NCBI GenBank assembly: GCA_019115455.1 | Contig: DXDN01000010.1 | Coordinates: 1 to 64,000 of the forward strand | Length of the DNA: 64,000 nucleotides | Source: Candidatus Eubacterium faecigallinarum | Lineage (GTDB): Bacteria > Bacillota > Clostridia > Oscillospirales > Acutalibacteraceae | Direction of reading: 5' to 3' | Part shown: in pieces, positions 1,967-31,734 of the stretch | Position numbering within the stretch: position 1 is the stretch's first letter | Layout of the letters: the number at the start of each line of letters is the position of its first letter | Notes under the pieces: model-generated | Seen by the model: the letters and a program-made list of their open reading frames with translations, nothing else | What the model was told of the DNA's origin: nothing | Databases searched by the model: none | Program-made: the position numbers and the translations under genes

Positions 1967-2662
1967 ATGGACAAAATCAAGGTTCTTATTGCAGAAGACG
2001 ATAAAGATATAATTGAAGTCTTAAAACTTTATATAGAGAGCAACGACATGGATGTGCTTGTTGCTCAGGACGGCGAAAAAGCGCTGGAACTTGCCCAACG
2101 CGGCGGTGCTTCCATCGCATTAGTAGACATAATGATGCCGAAATTAAACGGATACGAGCTGATAAAAGAAATACGCAAGACCAGCAGTATGCCGATAATC
2201 ATTGTTTCGGCAAAAAGTGCTGACAGCGACAAGGTGCTGGGGCTTGATATAGGAGCTGACGCTTTTATCACCAAGCCTTTTAATCCGCTGGAAGTGATTG
2301 CATACATCAAAGCCACGCTGAGAAGATGCGCCTACGCAGAAAACGGTAAAAGCGACAACTCTCAAATTATCTGTCTGAAAGAGCTTAAGCTCAACATCAA
2401 CGAGGGGGTTCTGACGAAAAACGACAAGGTTATCCCAATAACCGGCGCTGAAATGAAAATTCTTCAAAAGCTTATGGAAAATCCCAACAGAATTTTCACC
2501 AAAGCACAGTTATATAAATGCATAAACGACGATTATTTCTGCAATGACGAAAACACCATAATGGTTCACATATCAAACATACGCTCAAAAATCGAAGATG
2601 ATCCTACAAAGCCCAAATATATAAAAACGATGAGAGGTTTAGGGTATAAAATTGAAAACTAA
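1967..2662 (+). CDS. OmpR/PhoB-family response regulator
   Basis: 231 aa from the ATG at 1967. The receiver domain (1-120) has the acidic pocket AEDD, phospho-acceptor Asp54 in LVDIMMP, the switch Ser in IVSAK and the Lys in TKPF. The C-terminal winged helix (about 135-230) ends in the usual GLGYKIEN. The ATG at 1907 is rejected because the extra 20 residues lie outside the receiver fold, although the RBS before 1967 is weak. The 3' end overlaps the kinase gene by 11 nt. The pair lies directly upstream of the D-alanylation-like operon and is a plausible regulator of it, by analogy with DltRS, but this is inferred from position and the direct repeats at 4334-4353. Confidence 0.92.
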   Translation: MDKIKVLIAEDDKDIIEVLKLYIESNDMDVLVAQDGEKALELAQRGGASIALVDIMMPKLNGYELIKEIRKTSSMPIIIVSAKSADSDKVLGLDIGADAFITKPFNPLEVIAYIKATLRRCAYAENGKSDNSQIICLKELKLNINEGVLTKNDKVIPITGAEMKILQKLMENPNRIFTKAQLYKCINDDYFCNDENTIMVHISNIRSKIEDDPTKPKYIKTMRGLGYKIEN

Positions 2663-4244
2663 GAAAAAGAGCATACTGCGGATATGCCTGCTGCATTTCA
2701 CACTGTTTTCTGTAGTCATAATCGCCGTATTTTTTGCCACCGGGCAGATATCAAATTCTTTTTTTGAACATGCGCTGCCTATAATCGACGACATAATGAA
2801 ATATGAGGACAAGCTCAAAGCGGAGGATTATTCCTCAATCCCGATAAATAAAATGCGCAAAAGCAGTTTCGCCGTATTTGACGAAAATGATAATATGATA
2901 TATTTTTCCTCAAGCGATATCTTAAACGACCTTAATGAGGAAGATATTAAATTTATCAGCGACACATATAACGGAATATGGTTCAGTGTTTTAAAATTCA
3001 GCAATGACGGCAACGGAAACAGCGGCTACGTTATTATGAAAACCCGTTATGACGAGAAAACCAAGACGGACCGTGTACTTGACCACTGCTTTATTGACAA
3101 TGATTACAATATTCTTTCCGGAGATATGTTCCCCGGCAGAACAAAGCTTACAGAAAAAGAATTTGAAATTCTTTCAAAAGGAATATTGTCAAGCAAAAAG
3201 AATATTGAAAAAGCCTCGTTTACAACAGCGGATGGTCAAAAGCGTACGCTTGCCTTTATCTCTCCTTTAGATAATCAGAGCAGCTACAATATCGCTCAAA
3301 CAAGGTCACGTTTAGTGTGGCTTACTATGATACCTTTTTTGCTGGCGGTAATTTTGATTGAGACACGCTTTTTCGTACTGCACTTCAAAAAGGTCTTCAG
3401 ACCTCTTGACGATTCCATCAGGGATTACGAAGCAAGCAGACACTTTAATATAAATCAGTCGGATGTTCCGCAAGAACTTGAGACCTTTGTTTACGATTTT
3501 ACCGAGCTTATCGAAATTCTCGACCGTGAAAAAAGAAAAAACGAACAAGCTTACAAGGAAAAGCAAAGGGTATTTGCGAACCTTTCCCACGACCTGAGAA
3601 CTCCCCTTACAAGCATCCAGGGATATTCAAAGGCATTTATCGACGGAGTTGTTCCCGAGGAAAAAAAGAGCCAGTATATGAAGGCGATTTACGACAGAGT
3701 AATTGACGCGTCGGATATTATTGATTCCGTTTACGAATATTCAAGGCTTGAGCACCCTGATTTCATGGCTAATTTTGCAGAAGATGATTTTTGCGAATTT
3801 ATTAAGGAATATGCCGCTGAAAAATATACGGAACTGGAATTCAAAGGTTATAAAATGGAGGTTGAGATACCCGATAAAATCATCCTTATGAGCTTTGACA
3901 AAATTCTGATTACCAGGCTTTTTAATAATATAATCGGAAACAGCGTCAAATATAATGATACGAAAACGACAATCTATCTGATATGTAAAGAGGATGAGGA
4001 AAACAAGGAAGTATTAATAACCATTGCAGACAATGGAAAAGGCATGCCCGACGATGTCAGAAAAAGCATATTCAAACCCTTTGTTGTTGGGGACGAGGCA
4101 AGAACAAAAACGACGGGAACGGGACTCGGACTCACCATATCACGAAATATCGTCAGTCTTCACAAGGGTAAAATTGAATTTGTTTACCCGCCTCAAGAAC
4201 CGTACAGCACGCAGTTTAACATAACATTAAATGAAAATAATTAA
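2652..4244 (+). CDS. sensor histidine kinase
   Basis: 530 aa, TTG start at 2652 inside the end of the regulator gene, with AGGG seven bases upstream. Membrane segments lie at about 8-29 and 222-243, enclosing an extracytoplasmic sensor domain of about 190 aa. A linker leads to HisKA (NLSHDLRTPLTSIQGYS, His313) and a HATPase_c domain with N box (NIIGNSVKYND), G1 box (DNGKGMP) and G2 box (TGTGLGLTIS). The signal sensed cannot be read from the sequence; the periplasmic-type domain is not one I recognise. It is translationally coupled to the response regulator and ended by the terminator at 4259-4300. Confidence 0.93.
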   Translation: MKTKKKSILRICLLHFTLFSVVIIAVFFATGQISNSFFEHALPIIDDIMKYEDKLKAEDYSSIPINKMRKSSFAVFDENDNMIYFSSSDILNDLNEEDIKFISDTYNGIWFSVLKFSNDGNGNSGYVIMKTRYDEKTKTDRVLDHCFIDNDYNILSGDMFPGRTKLTEKEFEILSKGILSSKKNIEKASFTTADGQKRTLAFISPLDNQSSYNIAQTRSRLVWLTMIPFLLAVILIETRFFVLHFKKVFRPLDDSIRDYEASRHFNINQSDVPQELETFVYDFTELIEILDREKRKNEQAYKEKQRVFANLSHDLRTPLTSIQGYSKAFIDGVVPEEKKSQYMKAIYDRVIDASDIIDSVYEYSRLEHPDFMANFAEDDFCEFIKEYAAEKYTELEFKGYKMEVEIPDKIILMSFDKILITRLFNNIIGNSVKYNDTKTTIYLICKEDEENKEVLITIADNGKGMPDDVRKSIFKPFVVGDEARTKTTGTGLGLTISRNIVSLHKGKIEFVYPPQEPYSTQFNITLNENN

Positions 4245-4258
4245 ATAATGCAGTACAA

Positions 4259-4300
4259 AAACGCTTTGCTGAATCAAATTCAGCAAGGCGTTTTTTCTTT
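4259..4300 (+). terminator. intrinsic terminator after the two-component system
   Basis: AACGCTTTGCTGAAT pairs with ATTCAGCAAGGCGTT (one G-T pair), followed by TTTTTTCTTTT. It separates the regulator transcript from the acylation operon. Confidence 0.9.
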
Positions 4301-4333: not shown

Positions 4334-4376
4334 TTAAGATTGTCTTTAGGTTGCATTAATGTAGGGATTTTATAAT
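4334..4376 (+). promoter_or_regulatory. putative response-regulator-activated promoter of the acylation operon
   Basis: Direct repeats TTAAGATTG (4334-4342) and TTTAGGTTG (4345-4353) are spaced 11 bp start to start, the geometry used by OmpR/PhoB-family dimers. The second repeat covers the -35 position (AGGTTG, a poor -35), exactly 17 bp from a perfect TATAAT (4371-4376). This is the expected layout of an activator-dependent promoter. The adjacent regulator is the obvious candidate, by inference. Confidence 0.55.
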
Positions 4377-4407
4377 CTGGGTGAAAAAACGAAAAGGAGG
4401 AAACCAT

Positions 4408-5916
4408 ATGAAAAACGTTCTGGAATATCTGGAAAAGACGGCTTCAGTAAAGCACGACCAGCAGGCAGTGGTGATGGAAGACCAGTCCGTTAGCTGGGCA
4501 CAGCTTGCAGAAATATCACAGCAAATAGGAACCGGACTTGCAAAGCACGTTAAGCCCAAGACTCCTGTCCCTGTTCTGGCAGAAAAAGGAATTGACACCC
4601 TTTGCGCCTTTTTCGGAATTGTTTACGCAGGCTGTTTTTACATTATGCTTAATCCCCAGCTTCCTGAGGCACGCCTTAAAAGCATTCTTGACACACTTGA
4701 AAGCCCGTGTCTGCTGACAGACGCCCAAAGTGCCTCTCTTGCCCACAGTTTAAGTGCCAACGTTATCGAAATAGAAGAACTCAAGGTGGAGGCAAATTAC
4801 GGGCTGTTAAACAAAATAAGAACTGCTCAGACAGATTCCGACCCGCTTTATGCACTGTTTACCTCAGGTTCCACAGGAGTGCCCAAGGGCGTACTTGTTT
4901 CCCACAGGAATGTAATTGATTTTATCGACACTTTCACAGGCACCTTTGATATCGGCGAGGGTGATGTTATAGCCAATCAGGCGCCGTTTGATTTTGATGT
5001 TTCGGTAAAGGATATATATTCATCCATTAAAACAGGCGCAAAGCTTGTGCTTGTGCCAAAGCAGCTTTTCTCCCAGCCTACGGAGCTGACGGTGTATCTG
5101 GAGAAAAACGGTGTTACCACTCTCATTTGGGCGGTGTCGGCGCTGTGCCTTATCAGCACGTTCCACTGCCTTGACTACTGCCGACCGCAGCTGATAAACA
5201 AAATCCTGTTCAGCGGCGAGGTAATGCCTGTCAAGCATCTTAAGGAATGGATGAGCTATTATCCCGACGCTGTTTTCGTAAATCTCTACGGACCTACAGA
5301 GATAACCTGCAACTGCACTTATCACATAGTGAATAACAACGATGGCTACGAAAGCGGCATACCCATCGGCAGAGCGTTTAAAAACCGGGAGGTTTTCCTC
5401 CTGGACAATGAAAACAACCTTGTTACGGAAAGCGGCAAAACAGGAGAAATCTGCGTAAGGGGCGTGTCCGTTGCTATGGGTTACTTTAACAATCCGCAGC
5501 AGACGGCGCTTGCCTTTGTTCAGAATCCGCTAAATAAAAAATATACGGATATAATCTACCGCACGGGAGATCTGGGCAAATATAACGAAGACGGCGAACT
5601 TGTTTTCAGCGGCAGAAAAGATTTTCAAATCAAGCACATGGGGCACCGAATCGAGCTTGAGGAAATTGAAAGAGCCATGACGGCGATAAACGAAATAAGC
5701 CGCGCGTGCTGTGTTTTTGATGAGAAAAAGAGCAAGCTGTTTGGTTTTTATACAGGAAATCTTGAAAAAAAGGAGCTTCACGGTGTGCTCAGCAAAACGC
5801 TGCCCGTTTATATGATACCGAGTGCTCTCAGGCAGATTGAAGAATTCCCGCTTAACAAAAACGGAAAAATCGACAGGAAACTGCTTTTTGAAATATACGG
5901 AGGCAGAAGAAGATGA
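4408..5916 (+). CDS. DltA-like amino-acid adenylating enzyme (carrier-protein ligase)
   Basis: 502 aa of the ANL superfamily, closest in layout to D-alanine:carrier-protein ligase. The start at 4408 follows AAAGGAGG; the longer frame is not used. Motifs: ATP loop LFTSGSTGVPKG, core NQAPFDFDVSVKD with the Asp that would hold an amino group, YGPTEITCNCTY, YRTGDL and the C-terminal catalytic Lys in NKNGKIDRK. It should adenylate an amino acid and load it onto the carrier protein at 7096-7329. The segment where DltA reads roughly STPSF is WAVSALCLIS here, so the substrate need not be D-alanine. It is the first gene of a tight five-gene operon; its stop overlaps the next start (ATGA). Confidence 0.88.
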   Translation: MKNVLEYLEKTASVKHDQQAVVMEDQSVSWAQLAEISQQIGTGLAKHVKPKTPVPVLAEKGIDTLCAFFGIVYAGCFYIMLNPQLPEARLKSILDTLESPCLLTDAQSASLAHSLSANVIEIEELKVEANYGLLNKIRTAQTDSDPLYALFTSGSTGVPKGVLVSHRNVIDFIDTFTGTFDIGEGDVIANQAPFDFDVSVKDIYSSIKTGAKLVLVPKQLFSQPTELTVYLEKNGVTTLIWAVSALCLISTFHCLDYCRPQLINKILFSGEVMPVKHLKEWMSYYPDAVFVNLYGPTEITCNCTYHIVNNNDGYESGIPIGRAFKNREVFLLDNENNLVTESGKTGEICVRGVSVAMGYFNNPQQTALAFVQNPLNKKYTDIIYRTGDLGKYNEDGELVFSGRKDFQIKHMGHRIELEEIERAMTAINEISRACCVFDEKKSKLFGFYTGNLEKKELHGVLSKTLPVYMIPSALRQIEEFPLNKNGKIDRKLLFEIYGGRRR

Positions 5917-7082
5917 GTTATGAAGAGCTTATAAAAAAATACGAAACGCCGTTTTACGCCTTTGATTTTCAGGTGCTCAGGGAAAGAATTGATTATATTA
6001 AAAATTCCCTGCCCCAAAATACGGCTCTTTGCTATGCTGTTAAGGCAAACACCTTCATTATATCGGAGGCTCAAAAACACGTTGAGCGGCTGGAGGTATG
6101 CTCAGAGGGTGAATTTGAAGTCTGCGAAGCGCTGGGCGTTGATATGGAAAAAATCGTGCTCTCAGGAGTATACAAAACGCCGAACTTCATCAGGCGTGTA
6201 ATAGAGCAGTACGATAATCTGGGAATATACACGGTGGAATCAATCTCCCAGTATGAGCTTTTGAAAAATCTGGCAAAGGAATTTGATAAAAAAATAAATG
6301 TGCTTGTAAGGCTCAATTCAAAAAATCAGTTCGGTGTAACCGAGGAGGATTTCAGACAAATTCTTGAGGAGAAAAACGAACGCATCAGCCTTAAGGGAAT
6401 ACAGTATTTCTCCACCACTCAAAAATCCTCGTTTAAAAAATTAAAAAGAGAGTTTGATTATCTCTCTCAGCTAATAAACCGAATTGAGGAAGAATATTCA
6501 ATCAAGATTCATGAGCTGGAATACGGAACAGGCTCGCCGGTATGCTATTTTAAAGAGGAGAGCTTTGACGAAGAGGAGTATTTTGAAATTCTTTCTCAGT
6601 TGCTGTCCAGCCTGCCTACTGACATAAAAATAACCCTTGAGATGGGAAGAAGCATAGCCGCCTCCTGCGGCACCTACTATTCAAAGGTTGTTGACAAAAA
6701 GAGCAACAAAGCAGGCAATTTTGCAATCATTGACGGCGGAATGAACCATCTTGTCTATTTCGGGCAAAGTATGGCAATGAAGCACCCTTATTTTGAAATG
6801 TATCCGCATCGTGCTGACGACAATGCCGAACTTTGGAATATCTGCGGCAGTCTCTGCACGGTAAACGACATTTTGGTAAAATCACTTCCTGTCACAAATC
6901 TTGATACAGGAGATATACTGATTTTCAAAAATACAGGCGCTTACTGCATGTGCGAGGGCATATCGCTTTTCCTCAGCCGTGAGCTTCCGGCAGTAGTCAT
7001 TGATGATAACGGCAATTCACAATTAGTAAGAAATCACTTTAAAACAAGCCAATTAAACAAACCAAATTTTAATTTAAAATAA
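5913..7082 (+). CDS. LysA-like fold-III PLP-dependent decarboxylase within the acylation operon
   Basis: 389 aa of the diaminopimelate/ornithine decarboxylase superfamily (alanine-racemase-like barrel plus beta domain). Visible motifs: PLP Lys44 in CYAVKAN, GTGSP (206-209) at the phosphate-binding glycine loop, EMGRS (243-247, equivalent to EPGR), IIDGGMNHL, and the C-terminal Cys315/Asp319 region, CGSLCTVND. Differences from LysA: the GIHFHxGSQ segment is GIQYFSTTQ (162-170), so the PLP-stacking His is absent, and CESGD is CTVND, so the substrate-reading Glu is absent. It is not diaminopimelate decarboxylase in specificity. Position between the ligase and carrier genes suggests it acts on the amino acid before or after loading. 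Racemisation is an alternative. Confidence 0.8.
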   Translation: MSYEELIKKYETPFYAFDFQVLRERIDYIKNSLPQNTALCYAVKANTFIISEAQKHVERLEVCSEGEFEVCEALGVDMEKIVLSGVYKTPNFIRRVIEQYDNLGIYTVESISQYELLKNLAKEFDKKINVLVRLNSKNQFGVTEEDFRQILEEKNERISLKGIQYFSTTQKSSFKKLKREFDYLSQLINRIEEEYSIKIHELEYGTGSPVCYFKEESFDEEEYFEILSQLLSSLPTDIKITLEMGRSIAASCGTYYSKVVDKKSNKAGNFAIIDGGMNHLVYFGQSMAMKHPYFEMYPHRADDNAELWNICGSLCTVNDILVKSLPVTNLDTGDILIFKNTGAYCMCEGISLFLSRELPAVVIDDNGNSQLVRNHFKTSQLNKPNFNLK

Positions 7083-7095
7083 AGGAGAAATAATT

Positions 7096-7329
7096 ATGGA
7101 AACTTTACTTGAAATTTTAGAGGACATCAGACCCGACGTTGATTTTAAAAACTGTAATACTTTAATTGACGACCACATTCTTGATTCACTGGCAATTATT
7201 TCGCTTATTGCAGAAATTGAGGACGAATTTGACATTACGATACCCACTGTTGAAATAGCTCCGAGGAATTTCAACAGCGCAAACGCTATATGGGATATGA
7301 TAAAGCGGCTTCAGGAGGACGATGAGTAA
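7096..7329 (+). CDS. DltC-like acyl/aminoacyl carrier protein
   Basis: A 77-aa acidic helical protein with the 4'-phosphopantetheine attachment serine at Ser31 in DDHILDSLAIISLI. Size and motif match D-alanyl carrier protein and other small peptidyl carriers. AAAGGAG lies seven bases before the ATG. Its stop overlaps the MBOAT start (TAATG), so carrier and transferase are translated together. The role inferred is to hold the activated (possibly decarboxylated) aminoacyl group for transfer by the membrane acyltransferase. It is distinct from the fatty-acid-type carrier protein at 52201-52428, which has the GADSLD motif. Confidence 0.88.
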   Translation: METLLEILEDIRPDVDFKNCNTLIDDHILDSLAIISLIAEIEDEFDITIPTVEIAPRNFNSANAIWDMIKRLQEDDE

Positions 7330-8912
7330 TGACCTATTTCGGCCCGGAATACTTTGCCCTTTTCCTGCCGATTGTCGCTCTGCTCTATTCCATAATGCCG
7401 AAAAAAGTACGCCCCTTTGTGCTTTTGCTGGCAAGCTACCAGTTCTTTTGGCTGATAAGCGGCAAGCTGATTGCGTATCTGCTTTTCTCCACCGTTTCGA
7501 TACACCATTTCGGGCTGTGGTTAGACAAGCTTCAGCGTGAGAAAAAACTGGCTGTAAAAGGGCTTGAAAAGGAAGAAAAAAAATCTGTAAAAGCGGCTTT
7601 TGACAGGCAGCAGAATCTTGTGCTCGCCTTTGCCGTTATAATTCATATAGGCTTGCTTGCCGTGCTAAAATACACACCCTTTGCGGTAAGCAATCTCAAT
7701 CTTATTCTGGCACACTTTAATGTTCAGGTAAGCAAGATCAGCTTCATGGTGCCTATCGGAATATCATTCTATACGCTTCAGGCAGTGTCATACATGACCG
7801 ACGTACGCCGTGGAACTGTGAAGGCAGACAAAAATCTGTTTCGCCTGGCGCTTTATATGAGCTTTTTCCCCCAGACAATGGAGGGACCCATCGCCAGGTA
7901 TTCGGACACAGCCCAGCAGCTCTTTAACGGAAAGCAAATTGATTACAATAATTTCGTTTTCGGCTTTGAAAGAATAGTATTCGGACTTTTCAAAAAAATC
8001 ATTATTGCCGACAGACTCAACGAATTTGTAAAATCCGTCTTTGACCAATATGAAAAATACGACGGCGGAATAATACTGATTGCGGCGATAGCGTATACCG
8101 TTGAGCTTTATATGGATTTTTCCGGCGCAATGGATATAGGTATCGGAAGCGCAAGAATATTCGGCGTAAAGCTGCCGGAAAATTTCAGACAGCCGTTTTT
8201 CTCAAAAAGCATTTCGGAATTCTGGACAAGATGGCACATTACACTTGGCACATGGTTCAGGGATTACGTGTATTACCCTGTATCATTTTCCGGCTTTTCA
8301 AAGAAGCTTACCGCCGCCGGCAGAAAACGCCTGGGCAATTATTTCGGGCCTCTTATGGCAGGAACTATCGCTCTTTTCTGCGTATGGTTATGCAACGGCA
8401 TATGGCATGGCTCAGCGTGGATGTACATATTCTTCGGCATGTATCACTTCGCAATGATTTTCACCGGCAACCTGTTTAATCCTGTCATAACAAAAATTTG
8501 CAGCAAGCTCCATATAAACAGGGAAAAAGGCCCTGTAGCGACAATAAGAATCGTTAAAACCTCTTTCCTTGTGGTGCTGGGTGAGATATTCTTCCGTGCG
8601 CACGGACTTGCTGAAGGTCTTCAGATGTTCGCAAAAATATTCACGAATTTTTCTCTCAAGGGCATTACATCAGGAGACATAACAAAGGCAGGACTTGATT
8701 ATCTTGATGTCATCGTCGTGCTGATTGCTGTGGCGGCTGTATTTGTCATCAGCGTTCTTAAAGAGAAAAATGTCGATATCTGCCAGCGTCTTTCCGAAAA
8801 AAATATTGTTTTAAGATGGGGCGTTGTTTTAGCTGCCGTTACGTGCATAATCGTTTTCGGAGCATACGGAGCCGAATATATACCAGTGGCTCCCATGTAC
8901 GCTGACTTTTAA
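7329..8912 (+). CDS. DltB-like MBOAT acyltransferase
   Basis: 527 aa, a polytopic membrane-bound O-acyltransferase. Conserved elements include SFYTLQAVSYMTDV, FFPQTMEGPIARY, YTVELYMDFSGAMDI, FWTRWHITLGTWFRDYVYYP (His303) and CNGIWHGSAWMYIFFG with the catalytic His360. DltB-type MBOATs move the thioester-bound group from the carrier protein across or onto the membrane side where the wall polymer is modified. A charged cytoplasmic-type stretch (about 68-95, KLQREKKLAVKGLEKEEKK) is longer than I expect for DltB. It is fused by start/stop overlap to the carrier gene and followed ten bases later by the DltD-like gene. Confidence 0.92.
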   Translation: MTYFGPEYFALFLPIVALLYSIMPKKVRPFVLLLASYQFFWLISGKLIAYLLFSTVSIHHFGLWLDKLQREKKLAVKGLEKEEKKSVKAAFDRQQNLVLAFAVIIHIGLLAVLKYTPFAVSNLNLILAHFNVQVSKISFMVPIGISFYTLQAVSYMTDVRRGTVKADKNLFRLALYMSFFPQTMEGPIARYSDTAQQLFNGKQIDYNNFVFGFERIVFGLFKKIIIADRLNEFVKSVFDQYEKYDGGIILIAAIAYTVELYMDFSGAMDIGIGSARIFGVKLPENFRQPFFSKSISEFWTRWHITLGTWFRDYVYYPVSFSGFSKKLTAAGRKRLGNYFGPLMAGTIALFCVWLCNGIWHGSAWMYIFFGMYHFAMIFTGNLFNPVITKICSKLHINREKGPVATIRIVKTSFLVVLGEIFFRAHGLAEGLQMFAKIFTNFSLKGITSGDITKAGLDYLDVIVVLIAVAAVFVISVLKEKNVDICQRLSEKNIVLRWGVVLAAVTCIIVFGAYGAEYIPVAPMYADF

Positions 8913-8921
8913 GGAGAGAAT

Positions 8922-9860
8922 ATGACTGAGAAATTTAAAATTTTAAAGATAGTTGTTTTCATCTGCGCTGTTTTTACTATTATCGGAGTGCTCTCTGTTA
9001 TGGTAAATCCTTACAACACAGGCGCAGGCGTGGACAAATTTGACAAGGTTGTAATCGATGCGGACTCAGAAAATGAAAATTCCATAGACGTTGTGGTTAT
9101 AGGCGACAGCGAGGCTTACCGCTCCATAATTCCGCCTGAAATGTACCGCAAATACGGCTTTACCTCGTACGTTGCCGCATCTCCTGCACAAAAGACATAC
9201 CAGTCCTATGACATGCTTGAGGCGATACTTGAAAGGCAGAAGCCCAGCGTTTGCATCCTTGAACCCAACGTACTGTTCAGGGACTACTCGATAGTTTCCT
9301 CAGTGTGGCCGAGATTTGAAAAGACATTTCCGATATTCAAATACCACAATGCGTGGAAAGGTGTTTTTGATTCTGACTACAAGTACGACGACCTGAGCTT
9401 TGACAGCTTTAAGGGATACAGATACATCGACTCGGTTAAGGCAACTAAAAATGTAAATTATATGGTGCAGACGGACAGCACGGAGCCTATCAGCACATCA
9501 AATATCAACGATTTTCGCAGGATATGCGGGCTTTGCGAAAAAAATGATATAAAACTTCTGCTTCTCAGAACGCCCAGCATAAAAAACTGGAACTATGCAA
9601 AATATGACGCAGTTCGTCAGCTTGCCGAAAAATACAAGGTAAAATTTATTGACCTTAATATGGACAACTCCATTGGTATTGACTGGACTCAGGACACCTA
9701 TGATAAGGGGGACCACCTGAATTACAGCGGCGCTGAGAAAGTCACGAATTTTCTGGGCGCATATCTTGACAAGCGTTATGACCTGCCGGATCACCGTGGC
9801 GACAAGGAGTATGCCTCCTGGGAAAAATCCGTTGAAAAATACTTGCAGAAAACAGATTAA
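8922..9860 (+). CDS. DltD-like SGNH-type membrane-anchored protein
   Basis: 312 aa. An N-terminal signal anchor (about 8-28) is followed by an extracytoplasmic alpha/beta domain. The nucleophile motif is VVVIGDSEAYRS (Ser63) and the C-terminal DKGDHLNYSG (261-270) supplies the Asp/His of an SGNH/DltD active site. In D-alanylation the DltD partner completes transfer of the aminoacyl group to teichoic acid; here it may do the same for whatever group the operon makes. It is shorter than typical DltD (about 400 aa) and closer to SGNH proteins paired with MBOATs in polysaccharide acylation. It is the last gene before the terminator at 9885-9910. Confidence 0.82.
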   Translation: MTEKFKILKIVVFICAVFTIIGVLSVMVNPYNTGAGVDKFDKVVIDADSENENSIDVVVIGDSEAYRSIIPPEMYRKYGFTSYVAASPAQKTYQSYDMLEAILERQKPSVCILEPNVLFRDYSIVSSVWPRFEKTFPIFKYHNAWKGVFDSDYKYDDLSFDSFKGYRYIDSVKATKNVNYMVQTDSTEPISTSNINDFRRICGLCEKNDIKLLLLRTPSIKNWNYAKYDAVRQLAEKYKVKFIDLNMDNSIGIDWTQDTYDKGDHLNYSGAEKVTNFLGAYLDKRYDLPDHRGDKEYASWEKSVEKYLQKTD

Positions 9861-9884
9861 AAAGCAGATAATAAGCATATTAAA

Positions 9885-9910
9885 AGGCGGGAGCAAATGC
9901 TCCCGCTTTT
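9885..9910 (+). terminator. terminator of the acylation operon
   Basis: GCGGGAGC (9887-9894) pairs with GCTCCCGC (9899-9906) around AAAT, followed by TTTT. Confidence 0.85.
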
Positions 9911-11135: not shown

Positions 11136-11172
11136 AAAAAAGTGTCGGATTACTCCGGCACTTTTCTTTTTT
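11136..11172. terminator. bidirectional terminator between convergent genes
   Basis: AAAGTGTCGGA and TCCGGCACTTT pair (one G-T), with T runs on the plus strand and A runs before it. It serves azlCD and the convergent kinase-Nudix gene. Confidence 0.8.
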
Positions 11173-12130
11173 ATTCCCTTGTGATAATCAGCTTTAAGCT
11201 CTTATCGGGATTTTTTATTTCGTTTTTTATAAATTCAGGATAGAGTAATACCCTGTCCAAGCCGTTTATATCCAGCCACTCAAAGGTATTTGTTCTGCCG
11301 GGTTCCCGTGTTTCAAACACCGTTTCGTAATTATCGAAACCGGTATTTTCTATATTGGCAAGGTAGTACACGCCTATCTCGTGAAATTGTCTGCCGTCTT
11401 CAATAAAGAAACATTCGTTAATCCATAAGGGCTTTATGTCTGAAATCTCAACGCCAAGCTCTTCGAGGATTTCACGTGAGACGGCTTCCCTGGATGTTTC
11501 GCCGAATCTGACCCTGCCACCCACGAGATAATATTCGCCGCTTGATGTGTTCTTTTGGGCAAGCAGCTTGTTATTATGAACAATTACCGCCGCTGCCCTG
11601 TGGTTAAAAATTCCTTTTTCGGTATTAAGCGTTAAATCAAGGGAATTGATTTTTTCAATGTATTCGTCAGCCTCTTTGTGGGAGTGAAAAGTGACTGTTT
11701 TTTTGTTGTACTTTTTAATTAGCCTGAGTATTACAGGCTTTACGTCAGCGTTAAAATTCTTAATAAAATCAATGAACTCTTCGTTCACAGGAAGCTCGCA
11801 GGGCATTTCAGGGCGACCGAATTTTCTGTTTTTAGCCCCTTCTATGCAAATTTCCATAGGCAAATCAAATAAAAATATTAAATCCGCCTGTGAAATTCTC
11901 ATCTCAAGAGTGTTTCTGAAATTGCCGTCTATTATAAAGCTGTCCTTTTTCAGTATTTCTTTTTGTTTATCTTTCATTTCTTCCCTGGTGATATGCGAAG
12001 AGTCCTTGTTCCAGTAAATCGCATCCAGGCAAAACAGCTCTATACCCGTAGCTTTTTGCAGTTTTCGGCTGAAAGTACTTTTACCTGCACCCGAACAGCC
12101 GATAATGATAATTTTCTTGTAACTGAACAT
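11171..12130 (-). CDS. P-loop kinase-like / Nudix hydrolase fusion
   Basis: 319 aa with two domains. Residues 1 to about 170 are a P-loop NTPase of the adenylate-kinase-like topology-modulation type: Walker A IIGCSGAGKSTFSRKL, then FCLDAIYWNKD, IIDGNFRNTL and a lid-like NRKFGRPE. Residues about 175-319 are a Nudix hydrolase with the complete box GGRVRFGETSREAVSREI followed by LEELGV. The joined protein could phosphorylate a nucleotide-like compound and hydrolyse a diphosphate, but substrates are unknown. AGGAGG precedes the ATG. The leader contains a terminator-like hairpin and a 5S rRNA-like segment (12153-12219). Confidence 0.85.
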   Translation of the reverse strand: MFSYKKIIIIGCSGAGKSTFSRKLQKATGIELFCLDAIYWNKDSSHITREEMKDKQKEILKKDSFIIDGNFRNTLEMRISQADLIFLFDLPMEICIEGAKNRKFGRPEMPCELPVNEEFIDFIKNFNADVKPVILRLIKKYNKKTVTFHSHKEADEYIEKINSLDLTLNTEKGIFNHRAAAVIVHNNKLLAQKNTSSGEYYLVGGRVRFGETSREAVSREILEELGVEISDIKPLWINECFFIEDGRQFHEIGVYYLANIENTGFDNYETVFETREPGRTNTFEWLDINGLDRVLLYPEFIKNEIKNPDKSLKLIITRE

Positions 12131-30315: not shown

Positions 30316-31734
30316 ATGTCACAAATCAAGAGCAAAATACTTCACAAGGTCGGTAACAGACTGTTTAAGTATATCTACAAAGACCCAAAAAAGAATATGC
30401 TCAGGCTTGTAAAAACAGGCAAGGTTTTTGCCGGGAAAATGTACCCTGAAAGCACATTTACCAAACCCATTGAAATTATTTCGGATGAAAGTAACGTTTG
30501 GCATCAGTTCCTTTTCCGTGGGATTGATGAGGTTGACCATGAATTTCTCAGGAAAGCCGTGCTCACCTTCGGCATTGACCTGGGGCTTATCGGCACCTCC
30601 ACTCTCAGAAAAAAGAGGGATGAGGAGCACTGCAATATCCCATGGGTAGTTCTTATGGACCCCACGTCGGCATGCAATATGAGATGCAAAGGCTGCTGGT
30701 CGGCAGAATACGGCTACAATTCAAATCTCACCCTTGATGAGATGCGCCGAATCGTCAGCCAAAGCAAGGAACTTGGTACGCATTTCTTTATGTACACCGG
30801 CGGCGAACCGCTTATCAGAAAGAACGATATTCTCACCGTGGCACGTGAAAATCCGGACTGCCTTTTCCTTGCCTTTACTAACGGTACCCTGGTGGACGAA
30901 AAATTCTGCGAGGATATGAAAGCGTGCGGCAATCTGTCGCTGGCGCTCTCTATTGAAGGCAGCGAGGAAACCAACGACAGCAGGAGGGGCGCAGGCGCTT
31001 ATCAAAAAACTTTCAGCGCAATGAGGCTTCTGAAAAAACACAAGTGCCTTTTCGGCACTTCCATATGCTACACCAGCGTCAATTACGAGGCGGTAACCTC
31101 GGATGAATTCTATGACCTTATGATTGAAAACGGCGCACGTTTTGCATGGTTTTTCCACTACATGCCGGTAGGCAGCGACGCAGATACGAACCTGCTGCTG
31201 TCTCCTGAACAGCGTGAGCACGTATACCGCAGTATCCGTGAAAAAAGAAATTCAAAAACCGGAAAGCCTATATTTACCGTAGATTTCCAAAACGATGCTG
31301 AATTTGTCGGCGGATGCATTGCCGGCGGCAGAAATTATTTTCACATTAATTCCGAAGGCGATGTGGAGCCCTGTGTATTTATTCACTATTCCGACTCGAA
31401 CATACGCCAAAAGAGTATCAGCGAATGCCTTAAATCCCCTCTTTTCAAGGAATACTACAAGGGACAGCCTTTTAACGACAATATGCTCAGACCCTGCCCG
31501 ATGCTTGAAAATCCAACAGCGCTGAGAAATATGGTTAAAAAGACCGGTGCCAAATCTACAAACCTTATTCAGGCAGAAAGCGCTGAGGAACTCTGCTCAA
31601 AATGCGACGAATACGCAAGACTGTGGGCACCCAAGGCAAAGGAGATATGGGAAGAGCAGGAGCGGTTTAAGCCGTTTACACAGTATTACCGCGACACCCC
31701 TGAGGGCAAAGCCCAGTTAGGCAAAAAATCCTAA
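30316..31734 (+). CDS. radical SAM protein with SPASM-type C-terminus
   Basis: 472 aa. About 110 N-terminal residues precede the radical SAM core: DPTSACNMRCKGCWS contains the CxxxCxxC cluster that binds the SAM [4Fe-4S]. MYTGGEPLIRKND is the GGEP motif. C-terminal Cys residues (GGCIAGG, EPCVFIHYS, LRPCPML, CSKCDEYA) indicate an auxiliary cluster as in SPASM enzymes. Such proteins modify peptides or proteins, but no precursor peptide is seen nearby. AAGAAAGGA precedes the ATG. A terminator follows. Confidence 0.88.
   Translation: MSQIKSKILHKVGNRLFKYIYKDPKKNMLRLVKTGKVFAGKMYPESTFTKPIEIISDESNVWHQFLFRGIDEVDHEFLRKAVLTFGIDLGLIGTSTLRKKRDEEHCNIPWVVLMDPTSACNMRCKGCWSAEYGYNSNLTLDEMRRIVSQSKELGTHFFMYTGGEPLIRKNDILTVARENPDCLFLAFTNGTLVDEKFCEDMKACGNLSLALSIEGSEETNDSRRGAGAYQKTFSAMRLLKKHKCLFGTSICYTSVNYEAVTSDEFYDLMIENGARFAWFFHYMPVGSDADTNLLLSPEQREHVYRSIREKRNSKTGKPIFTVDFQNDAEFVGGCIAGGRNYFHINSEGDVEPCVFIHYSDSNIRQKSISECLKSPLFKEYYKGQPFNDNMLRPCPMLENPTALRNMVKKTGAKSTNLIQAESAEELCSKCDEYARLWAPKAKEIWEEQERFKPFTQYYRDTPEGKAQLGKKS

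Follow-up and report, generated by a model that had tools for sequence, protein, structure and literature searches.

A conserved dlt-like operon with a fold-III PLP decarboxylase-like enzyme in Candidatus Eubacterium faecigallinarum: a candidate system for carrier-made aminoacyl esters

What would an operon resembling that of D-alanylation (dlt) attach to the cell surface, if it also encodes a pyridoxal 5'-phosphate (PLP) enzyme? This question is raised by positions 4334–9910 of the window, the 64,000-nucleotide stretch of contig DXDN01000010.1 of Candidatus Eubacterium faecigallinarum (assembly GCA_019115455.1) that was analysed here. According to the open reading frame (ORF) calls, five genes, named A, P, C, B and D, occupy 4408–9860, all on the + strand. 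A (4408–5916) encodes a stand-alone adenosine monophosphate (AMP)-forming amino acid ligase, with an ATG at 4408 behind the Shine-Dalgarno sequence AAAGGAGG; P (5913–7082), a fold-III PLP decarboxylase-like enzyme with Lys44, Cys315, Asp319 and Tyr344; C (7096–7329), a stand-alone carrier protein of 77 residues with the phosphopantetheine Ser31 in DSL; B (7329–8912), a membrane-bound O-acyltransferase (MBOAT) with His360 in WHG and Tyr524 in the C-terminal PMYADF; and D (8922–9860), an SGNH-type protein with Ser63 (GDSE), Asp261 and His265 (DKGDHLN). An earlier description of the locus, hereafter the sequence-only reading, had claimed a five-gene operon of this composition, and all five genes are indeed present on the + strand. 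The tight spacing that it described also holds, as overlaps (4 bases between A and P, 1 base between C and B) or short gaps (13 bases between P and C, 9 between B and D), with the correction that the gaps range over 9–13 and not 10–13 bases. As argued below, this operon probably works like Dlt, with an on-carrier decarboxylase.

Pfam and NCBIfam models back the assignment of A (AMP-binding), P (Orn_Arg_deC_N and Orn_DAP_Arg_deC), C (PP-binding, E value 2.7e-5) and B (MBOAT). A passes TIGR01733 (339 bits, cut-off 317) and does not reach the DltA equivalog TIGR01734 (297 bits, cut-off 559.85), a cut-off that is also missed by all 295 genomes of the order sample, canonical-looking dlt loci included. 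The DltC equivalogs are not reached by C (40 of 68 and 25 of 52 bits), nor the DltB equivalog by B (164 of 375 bits), and for D no Pfam or NCBIfam family, DltD included, was found at 1e-3, the GDSL match being sub-threshold (E value 0.015). Dlt membership fails on every family model tested and, by this measure, the operon is not a canonical dlt operon. It shares with Dlt (DltA, DltB, DltC, DltD and DltX) the presence of a ligase, a carrier, an MBOAT and an SGNH partner in one operon, as well as the MBOAT WHG histidine and the carrier serine. It differs from Dlt in having an additional PLP decarboxylase and the gene order A-P-C-B-D, in bearing the acyl-shuttle motif on the MBOAT itself and not on DltX, and in its ligase pocket, whose code is unlike those of the DltA rows. 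The exosortase A-associated families TIGR03098 and TIGR03099 are likewise a ligase and a fold-III PLP decarboxylase named for one system, and both models score on A and P; however, the window stays far under their cut-offs (195 of 592 bits for A on TIGR03098 and 170 of 478 bits for P on TIGR03099), and both families are hypothetical.

At an E value of 1e-30 or better, P had homologs in 16 of the 200 genomes sampled from the family, and in 17 of 394 at order level, 19 of 391 at class level (five weak) and 6 of 398 at phylum level (two weak); these samples overlap, and the organism's own genome is counted in each. A search of contigs gave 10 loci, five of which (L018–L022, 62–73% identity) belong to the system, the other five being distant LysA-like genes. 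Together with the 33 loci with fetched flanks from the genomes containing P, L018–L022 make up the 38 related loci considered here. All five genes lie together in 35 of these 38 loci, in five gene orders (A-P-C-B-D in 26, A-C-P-B-D in 4, A-P-B-D-C-B-D in 2, P-C-A-B-D in 2 and B-D-A-P-C in 1), and for this reason the association is not one of chance. The three incomplete loci are A-P at contig ends (L051 and L060) and A-P-C (L166); one locus, L169, comes from another class of the phylum. The co-occurrence of the PLP gene with the dlt-like set, which the sequence-only reading made its foremost check, is thus observed in relatives through several rearrangements, and the linkage is conserved. The two loci with the order A-P-B-D-C-B-D (L040 and L044) contain two B-D pairs, and in these two MBOAT-SGNH pairs may share one carrier.

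Weak matches to P (about 1e-32 to 1e-36; five genomes of family f51 and two of family f146) were not counted as the system. Neither B nor D is seen in the five of these seven whose loci were retrieved (L167, L168, L172, L170 and L171), although the contig of L170, of 3578 bases, is too short for a verdict. In L167, L168 and L172, from f51, the weaker P relative (E value about 1e-33 to 1e-36) lies in a long gene cluster whose ligase is of another type (code PIGVLGAARK) and whose carrier match is weak, and the stretch contains no B or D. Spread by plasmids was discarded, as the best 20 of 193 plasmid records show less than 30% identity and all 193 less than 60%.

The best sequence match of P in the PDB is BtrK (2j66, E value 5.5e-28; best LysA, 7.8e-26), and with the predicted model of P (predicted local distance difference test, pLDDT, 83) BtrK takes Foldseek ranks 1 and 2, with LysA and SbnH close behind. 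On the LysA model TIGR01048, P obtains 183–186 bits and does not reach the cut-off of 298; a second LysA-like gene in the same genome obtains 271 bits versus 183 for P, and neither reaches it. We aligned P with this LysA-like protein, Parabacteroides LysA, BtrK, the enzymes of three plasmid clusters with a carrier gene (L069 of Paenibacillus, L070 of Rahnella and L071 of Streptomyces) and that of a siderophore cluster (L072). P retains the PLP lysine, the Arg of E-x-GR, the Cys and Asp of C-x3-D and the GAY tyrosine. After the catalytic Cys, it has Thr and not the LysA Glu (CT..D vs CE..D), as do BtrK, L069–L071 and L072, and it is devoid of the RPAxY motif carried by both LysA rows, the own genome's other LysA-like protein keeping CE..D and RPAIY. 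The His of H-x-GSQ, found in Parabacteroides LysA and L072, is replaced by Phe or Tyr in P, BtrK and the three carrier-cluster rows, and the own LysA-like protein likewise has Phe at this place. Lys44 is invariant in 39 of 39 P proteins, and Cys315, Asp319 and Tyr344 in the 38 of 38 that reach them, a set common to LysA-type enzymes in general, and all 38 that align there carry Thr or Ser at the site of the Glu in the CE..D of LysA. All 39 P proteins form one clade (100/100, stem 2.92) in a tree of 57 rows, all kept.

Judged by these residues, P is a decarboxylase-like enzyme, not LysA; a function as the housekeeping LysA was rejected, since the genome's other LysA-like gene scores higher and P lacks the LysA residues. 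The presence of a fold-III PLP decarboxylase-like enzyme in the dlt-like set, as first proposed from the sequence, was thus corroborated, the enzyme being conserved and BtrK its best solved relative. The second option put forward at that time, a D-amino acid product, would cast P in the role of a racemase, and is disfavoured by the strict conservation of the decarboxylase Cys and Asp.

The ligase pocket was read at ten positions in the numbering of GrsA, which we take to be placed correctly, anchored by motifs. Positions 235, 236, 301, 330 and 331, together with DltA D197, L198 and C269, are confirmed in the excerpted text of PMC11253843. The window ligase has the code D V K A L S L C N K, and DVKA[LIM]S[LV]CNK is found in 35 of the 39 P loci, window included (type I; 29 exact). 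The other four (L050, L052, L053 and L064) constitute the A-C-P-B-D subtype, with the code IARS[CI]SQASK, in which the amino-binding Asp is replaced by Ile and position 239 is Arg; their ligase substrate probably differs again. Among 40 P-less loci of the order, a selection of stand-alone ligase ORFs, the type I code occurs once, in L127, which comes from a 72% complete genome and whose contig ends inside B, and this is also the only one of the 40 with the Cys-Asn at positions 330/331 present in the 35 type I loci. Cys301 and Asn302 (positions 330/331) and Gln365 mark type I versus the five other groups compared (L127 not among them). Codes of P-less loci include canonical DltA-like ones (L107–L109), SMxVLALDIK and DAKVAGLGMK, and those with a GNAT gene between A and C have DLKA[AI]G[LM]VDK or DAKAFALVDK. 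In the ligase tree (75 of 82 rows; L113, L115, L126, L146, L167, L168 and L172 were left out), ligases of the A-C-B-D type are recovered as a single clade that excludes canonical DltA (100/100), and the P-linked A proteins with L127 form one group of 40 (91/91, slightly under the firm-support mark of the tree tool). As these P-linked ligases, with L127, group together and most of them hold one pocket code, the change of the pocket seems to have come with the arrival of P.

The P-less A-C-B(-D) and A-GNAT-C-B operons of the order have in common with the window the ligase clade (100/100), a carrier, a long MBOAT and, mostly, a shuttle-like C-terminus; they differ in the absence of P, in pocket codes that are other than that of the window save in L127 and, in four cases, in a GNAT gene in the place of P. 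These four (L116, L121, L124 and L136) are A-GNAT-C-B operons encoding a GNAT-domain protein of about 255 amino acids at that place. Published nonribosomal peptide synthetase (NRPS) codes are DAQDLGVVDK for Glu/Gln and DLTKVGHVGK for Asp/Asn (PMC12283262, excerpts), and the code of L116, DLKAIGLVDK, has 5 of 10 positions in common with the former. The gene that follows the operon in L116 and L124, the two scanned, encodes a large protein with a polysaccharide deacetylase domain.

VinN, described in the excerpted text of PMC11253843 as activating the beta-carboxyl of 3-methylaspartate, is equal to A at Asp 235 and Ser 301, one mark of VinN-type ligases. A also has Val at position 236, a change present, according to the same excerpts, in every sequenced TycA variant selected for beta-Phe (PMC11253843), and its Lys at 239 would suit a carboxylate. 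Among the PLP-adjoining ligases of the plasmid clusters, that of Paenibacillus (L069) has VinN as best solved relative (319 bits), and that of Rahnella (L070) finds an NRPS first and VinN after.

The carrier motif L-x-S is present in 36 of 36 C relatives, and WHG in 37 of 37 B proteins found in the 38 loci. The C-terminus of B is [PF]xYxxF in 35 of the 37, the other two having LIYAGF; PMYADF of the window is an FXYXXF-like hexapeptide with Pro for Phe at position 1, and three canonical DltB of the order have no such C-terminal end. As far as the excerpted text of PMC12148441 goes, FXYXXF is an acyl-shuttle motif, which sits on DltX in Dlt and is part of the MBOAT itself in PatA-like systems, and other MBOAT-SGNH pathways have no carrier, evidently because acyl-coenzyme A (acyl-CoA) is used. 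Since B has the shuttle motif and the operon has a ligase and a carrier, the window joins a carrier-fed donor side to a fused shuttle. PatA/PatB and AlgI-type MBOAT-SGNH systems are similar in the FXYXXF-like hexapeptide fused to the MBOAT and in the separate SGNH protein, and different in having no carrier and evidently using acyl-CoA, whereas the window encodes ligase and carrier. D contains one N-terminal hydrophobic transmembrane helix and the GDSE and GDHLN motifs, and its predicted model has an SGNH fold (pLDDT 78) for which Foldseek gives thioesterase I first and PatB at rank 43, with a resemblance also to sialate O-acetylesterase; D is a candidate for a DltD-like role.

As A, C and B broadly resemble DltA, DltC and DltB, one may ask whether this is, after all, a true D-alanylation operon, in which P would be a racemase or an unrelated passenger. 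The MBOAT of the operon is, in fact, the sole one of the genome, a second having been looked for with PF03062 and none found. Nevertheless, A, C and B are far under the Dlt cut-offs (297 of 560, 40 of 68 and 164 of 375 bits), A is not part of the DltA clade, P accompanies the other four genes in 35 of 38 loci despite the changes of order, and the decarboxylase Cys and Asp are invariant, so that we consider D-alanylation highly improbable.

Precedents for a ligase, a carrier and a PLP decarboxylase acting together exist in natural product synthesis. In butirosin synthesis, BtrK acts on carrier-bound glutamate in the BtrI/BtrK pair (PMC7857480), the same scheme is described for vicenistatin VinN/VinO/VinL and fluvirucin FlvN (PMC11284099) and, for bolagladin BolO/BolC/BolN, deletion of bolN was not rescued by fed beta-alanine (PMC7756342), each according to the excerpted text of its source. 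The BtrI/BtrK pair resembles the window in combining a carrier and a fold-III PLP decarboxylase and in the pocket changes common to P and BtrK, and differs in serving a small-molecule pathway and in P falling in an apparently separate clade; the butirosin ligase, BtrJ, is reportedly of a different kind from A. VinN/VinO/VinL, FlvN and BolO/BolN/BolC share an AMP ligase, a carrier and a PLP decarboxylase that lead to a beta-aminoacyl-carrier, and differ as natural product pathways and in the VinN loop and Lys-Arg pair, which A does not have.

From the five proteins, their catalytic residues and their linkage, which are read directly in the sequence, we infer substrate, product and acceptor as follows. 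The substrate of A would be an acidic amino acid, with L-Asp as first candidate and Glu as second, which A would adenylate most likely at the side-chain carboxylate and load onto Ser31 of C. P would then decarboxylate the amino acid held on C to an omega-aminoacyl group, which B would move from C to its own Tyr524, the C-terminal hexapeptide replacing DltX. In the last step, D would pass the group to hydroxyls of a polymer outside the cell, for which a poly(glycerol phosphate) teichoic acid is plausible; the resulting ester, like that of D-Ala, would carry a free ammonium group. We estimate at about 0.5 the probability that a decarboxylated aminoacyl group, of whichever amino acid, is made on the carrier and exported, that is, the steps of P, B and D in outline. 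As to its identity, beta-alanine is a tentative and rather doubtful proposal, and gamma-aminobutyric acid (GABA) is quite unlikely.

For the acceptor, we identified in the own genome four PF04464 glycerophosphotransferase matches and one PF00884 match, which make a glycerol phosphate polymer plausible, and saw no pointer to a specific acceptor in the part of the window whose ORFs were scanned. All five matches lie on contigs other than that of the window, SGNH partners serve many acceptors, and the structures similar to the model of D include thioesterase I, sialate O-acetylesterase and PatB (rank 43); peptidoglycan, a capsule, a glycolipid or a secreted small molecule could therefore take the place of teichoic acid. 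These acceptors are possible, if on the unlikely side, given the PF04464 and PF00884 matches themselves and the sensor histidine kinase encoded upstream of A (2652–4244, + strand; Pfam/NCBIfam), whose best models are VanS, PnpS, WalK and BaeS, all far under their cut-offs.

Several observations weigh against decarboxylation of a carrier-bound acidic amino acid in this system. BtrK precedes the LysA structures by a narrow margin only, both in sequence and in Foldseek, and P forms a clade of its own, not seen within a BtrK clade, whose join to the rest of the tree has low support (66/63) and a long-branch warning. CT..D also occurs in the siderophore-cluster enzyme L072, and for this reason the BtrK-like loss of LysA residues is not proof of a carrier substrate. 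Regarding the ligase, Lys at 239 is also present in 19 of the 40 P-less loci, and the window code matches DAQDLGVVDK at 3 of 10 positions and DLTKVGHVGK at 2 of 10; reading the substrate from the ten residues alone was set aside as not decisive, since published codes match poorly. Genome G442 (72% complete) has the pocket code, with no P in its stretch or in the order search, and L166 (genome G697) has A-P-C without adjoining B or D, its MBOAT matches being on other contigs. The strict D motif is found in only 30 of 37 proteins; of the other seven, L048 and L052 are cut at contig ends, L162 has GDHPN, and L163, L164, L165 and L169 vary more. Finally, the beta13-beta14 loop of VinN is one residue shorter and holds a Lys-Arg pair (PMC11253843, excerpts), features that, in alignments compared by eye, A does not have; side-chain activation is thus unsupported by this mark, and its absence counts against a simple beta-Asp reading.

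Some of these points would fit an enzyme P with a free substrate (Glu, Asp or another amino acid), A activating the product or an unrelated amino acid and the linkage being one of supply only. Most fold-III decarboxylases act on free amino acids, L072 has CT..D, and, with Lys 239 in 19 of 40 P-less relatives, the pocket lysine alone calls for no on-carrier step. However, Cys-Asn at 330/331 follows the 35 type I P loci, with L127 as the single P-less case among 40, P and BtrK have several pocket changes in common, and free beta-alanine or GABA would need no pocket lysine; we regard a free substrate of P as unlikely.

A further point against the pathway proposed above is Glu348 of P (window 6954–6956), which all 38 aligned P proteins have and which the LysA and BtrK rows lack at this position; it is possibly involved in substrate recognition. 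Together with Arg356, kept in 37 of 38, it could hold a second amino acid end, as expected if A loaded meso-diaminopimelate by one amino acid end and P decarboxylated the other end on the carrier, giving lysyl, perhaps D-lysyl, esters. P does fall within the LysA/BtrK part of fold III, the Arg by which LysA binds the far carboxylate would not be needed with this group present as the thioester, and the pocket of A holds both an acid (D197) and a base (K201). Nevertheless, where LysA has the Glu of CE..D, each of the 38 aligned P proteins has Thr or Ser and BtrK has Thr and, with another LysA-like gene in the genome, such a detour would be needed only if D-lysine were wanted, which makes this route very unlikely.

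The region 4334–9910 is about one transcription unit, because two terminator-like hairpins bound the set: one between the upstream kinase gene and A (4257–4295, + strand), with an 18-pair stem and a T tail, and one 3' of D (9887–9906), listed with the + strand genes and placed by the scan on the - strand. The sensor kinase is paired with an OmpR-type response regulator (1967–2662, + strand; Pfam/NCBIfam), a possible regulator of the operon; a kinase homolog with more than 300 bits to that of the window occurs on the same strand in 9 of the 38 stretches, and in 8 of these it precedes A by no more than about 600 bases. Downstream of the operon lie AzlC (Pfam) and a second ORF, taken for a putative AzlD, which were excluded from the unit, since AzlC is near in 1 of the 38 related loci. 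Elsewhere in the window are an alpha/beta-type small acid-soluble spore protein (1438–1743, - strand; Pfam), because of which the organism is probably a spore former, a protein with an AAA/kinase-like N-terminal part (under the cut-off) fused to a NUDIX domain (11171–12130, - strand), and a radical SAM protein with a SPASM domain (30316–31734, + strand).

We found no description of a dlt-like operon with a PLP decarboxylase in open-licence PMC literature, judged mostly by titles and the opening lines of abstracts (subscription journals not covered); the parts are each known and, to our knowledge, the combination is new. D-alanylation determines how charged the surface of Gram-positive bacteria is and how sensitive they are to cationic peptides, and beta- or gamma-amino esters should resist hydrolysis more than alpha-amino esters. 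At slightly less than even odds, we propose that Clostridia may harbour a large undescribed branch of carrier-fed MBOAT-SGNH systems, in which the ligase pocket and a carrier-stage tailoring enzyme (PLP decarboxylase or GNAT) co-vary and different lineages esterify wall polymers with different tailored amino acids, here an omega-amino acid (beta-alanyl or GABA) or lysyl made on the carrier, replacing D-alanine. If true, the carrier-bound decarboxylation of antibiotic pathways would be tied to polymer decoration, a case not met in the same open-licence literature, and a group of Clostridia would have a new wall chemistry, with an aminoacyl group that arises from decarboxylation on a carrier.

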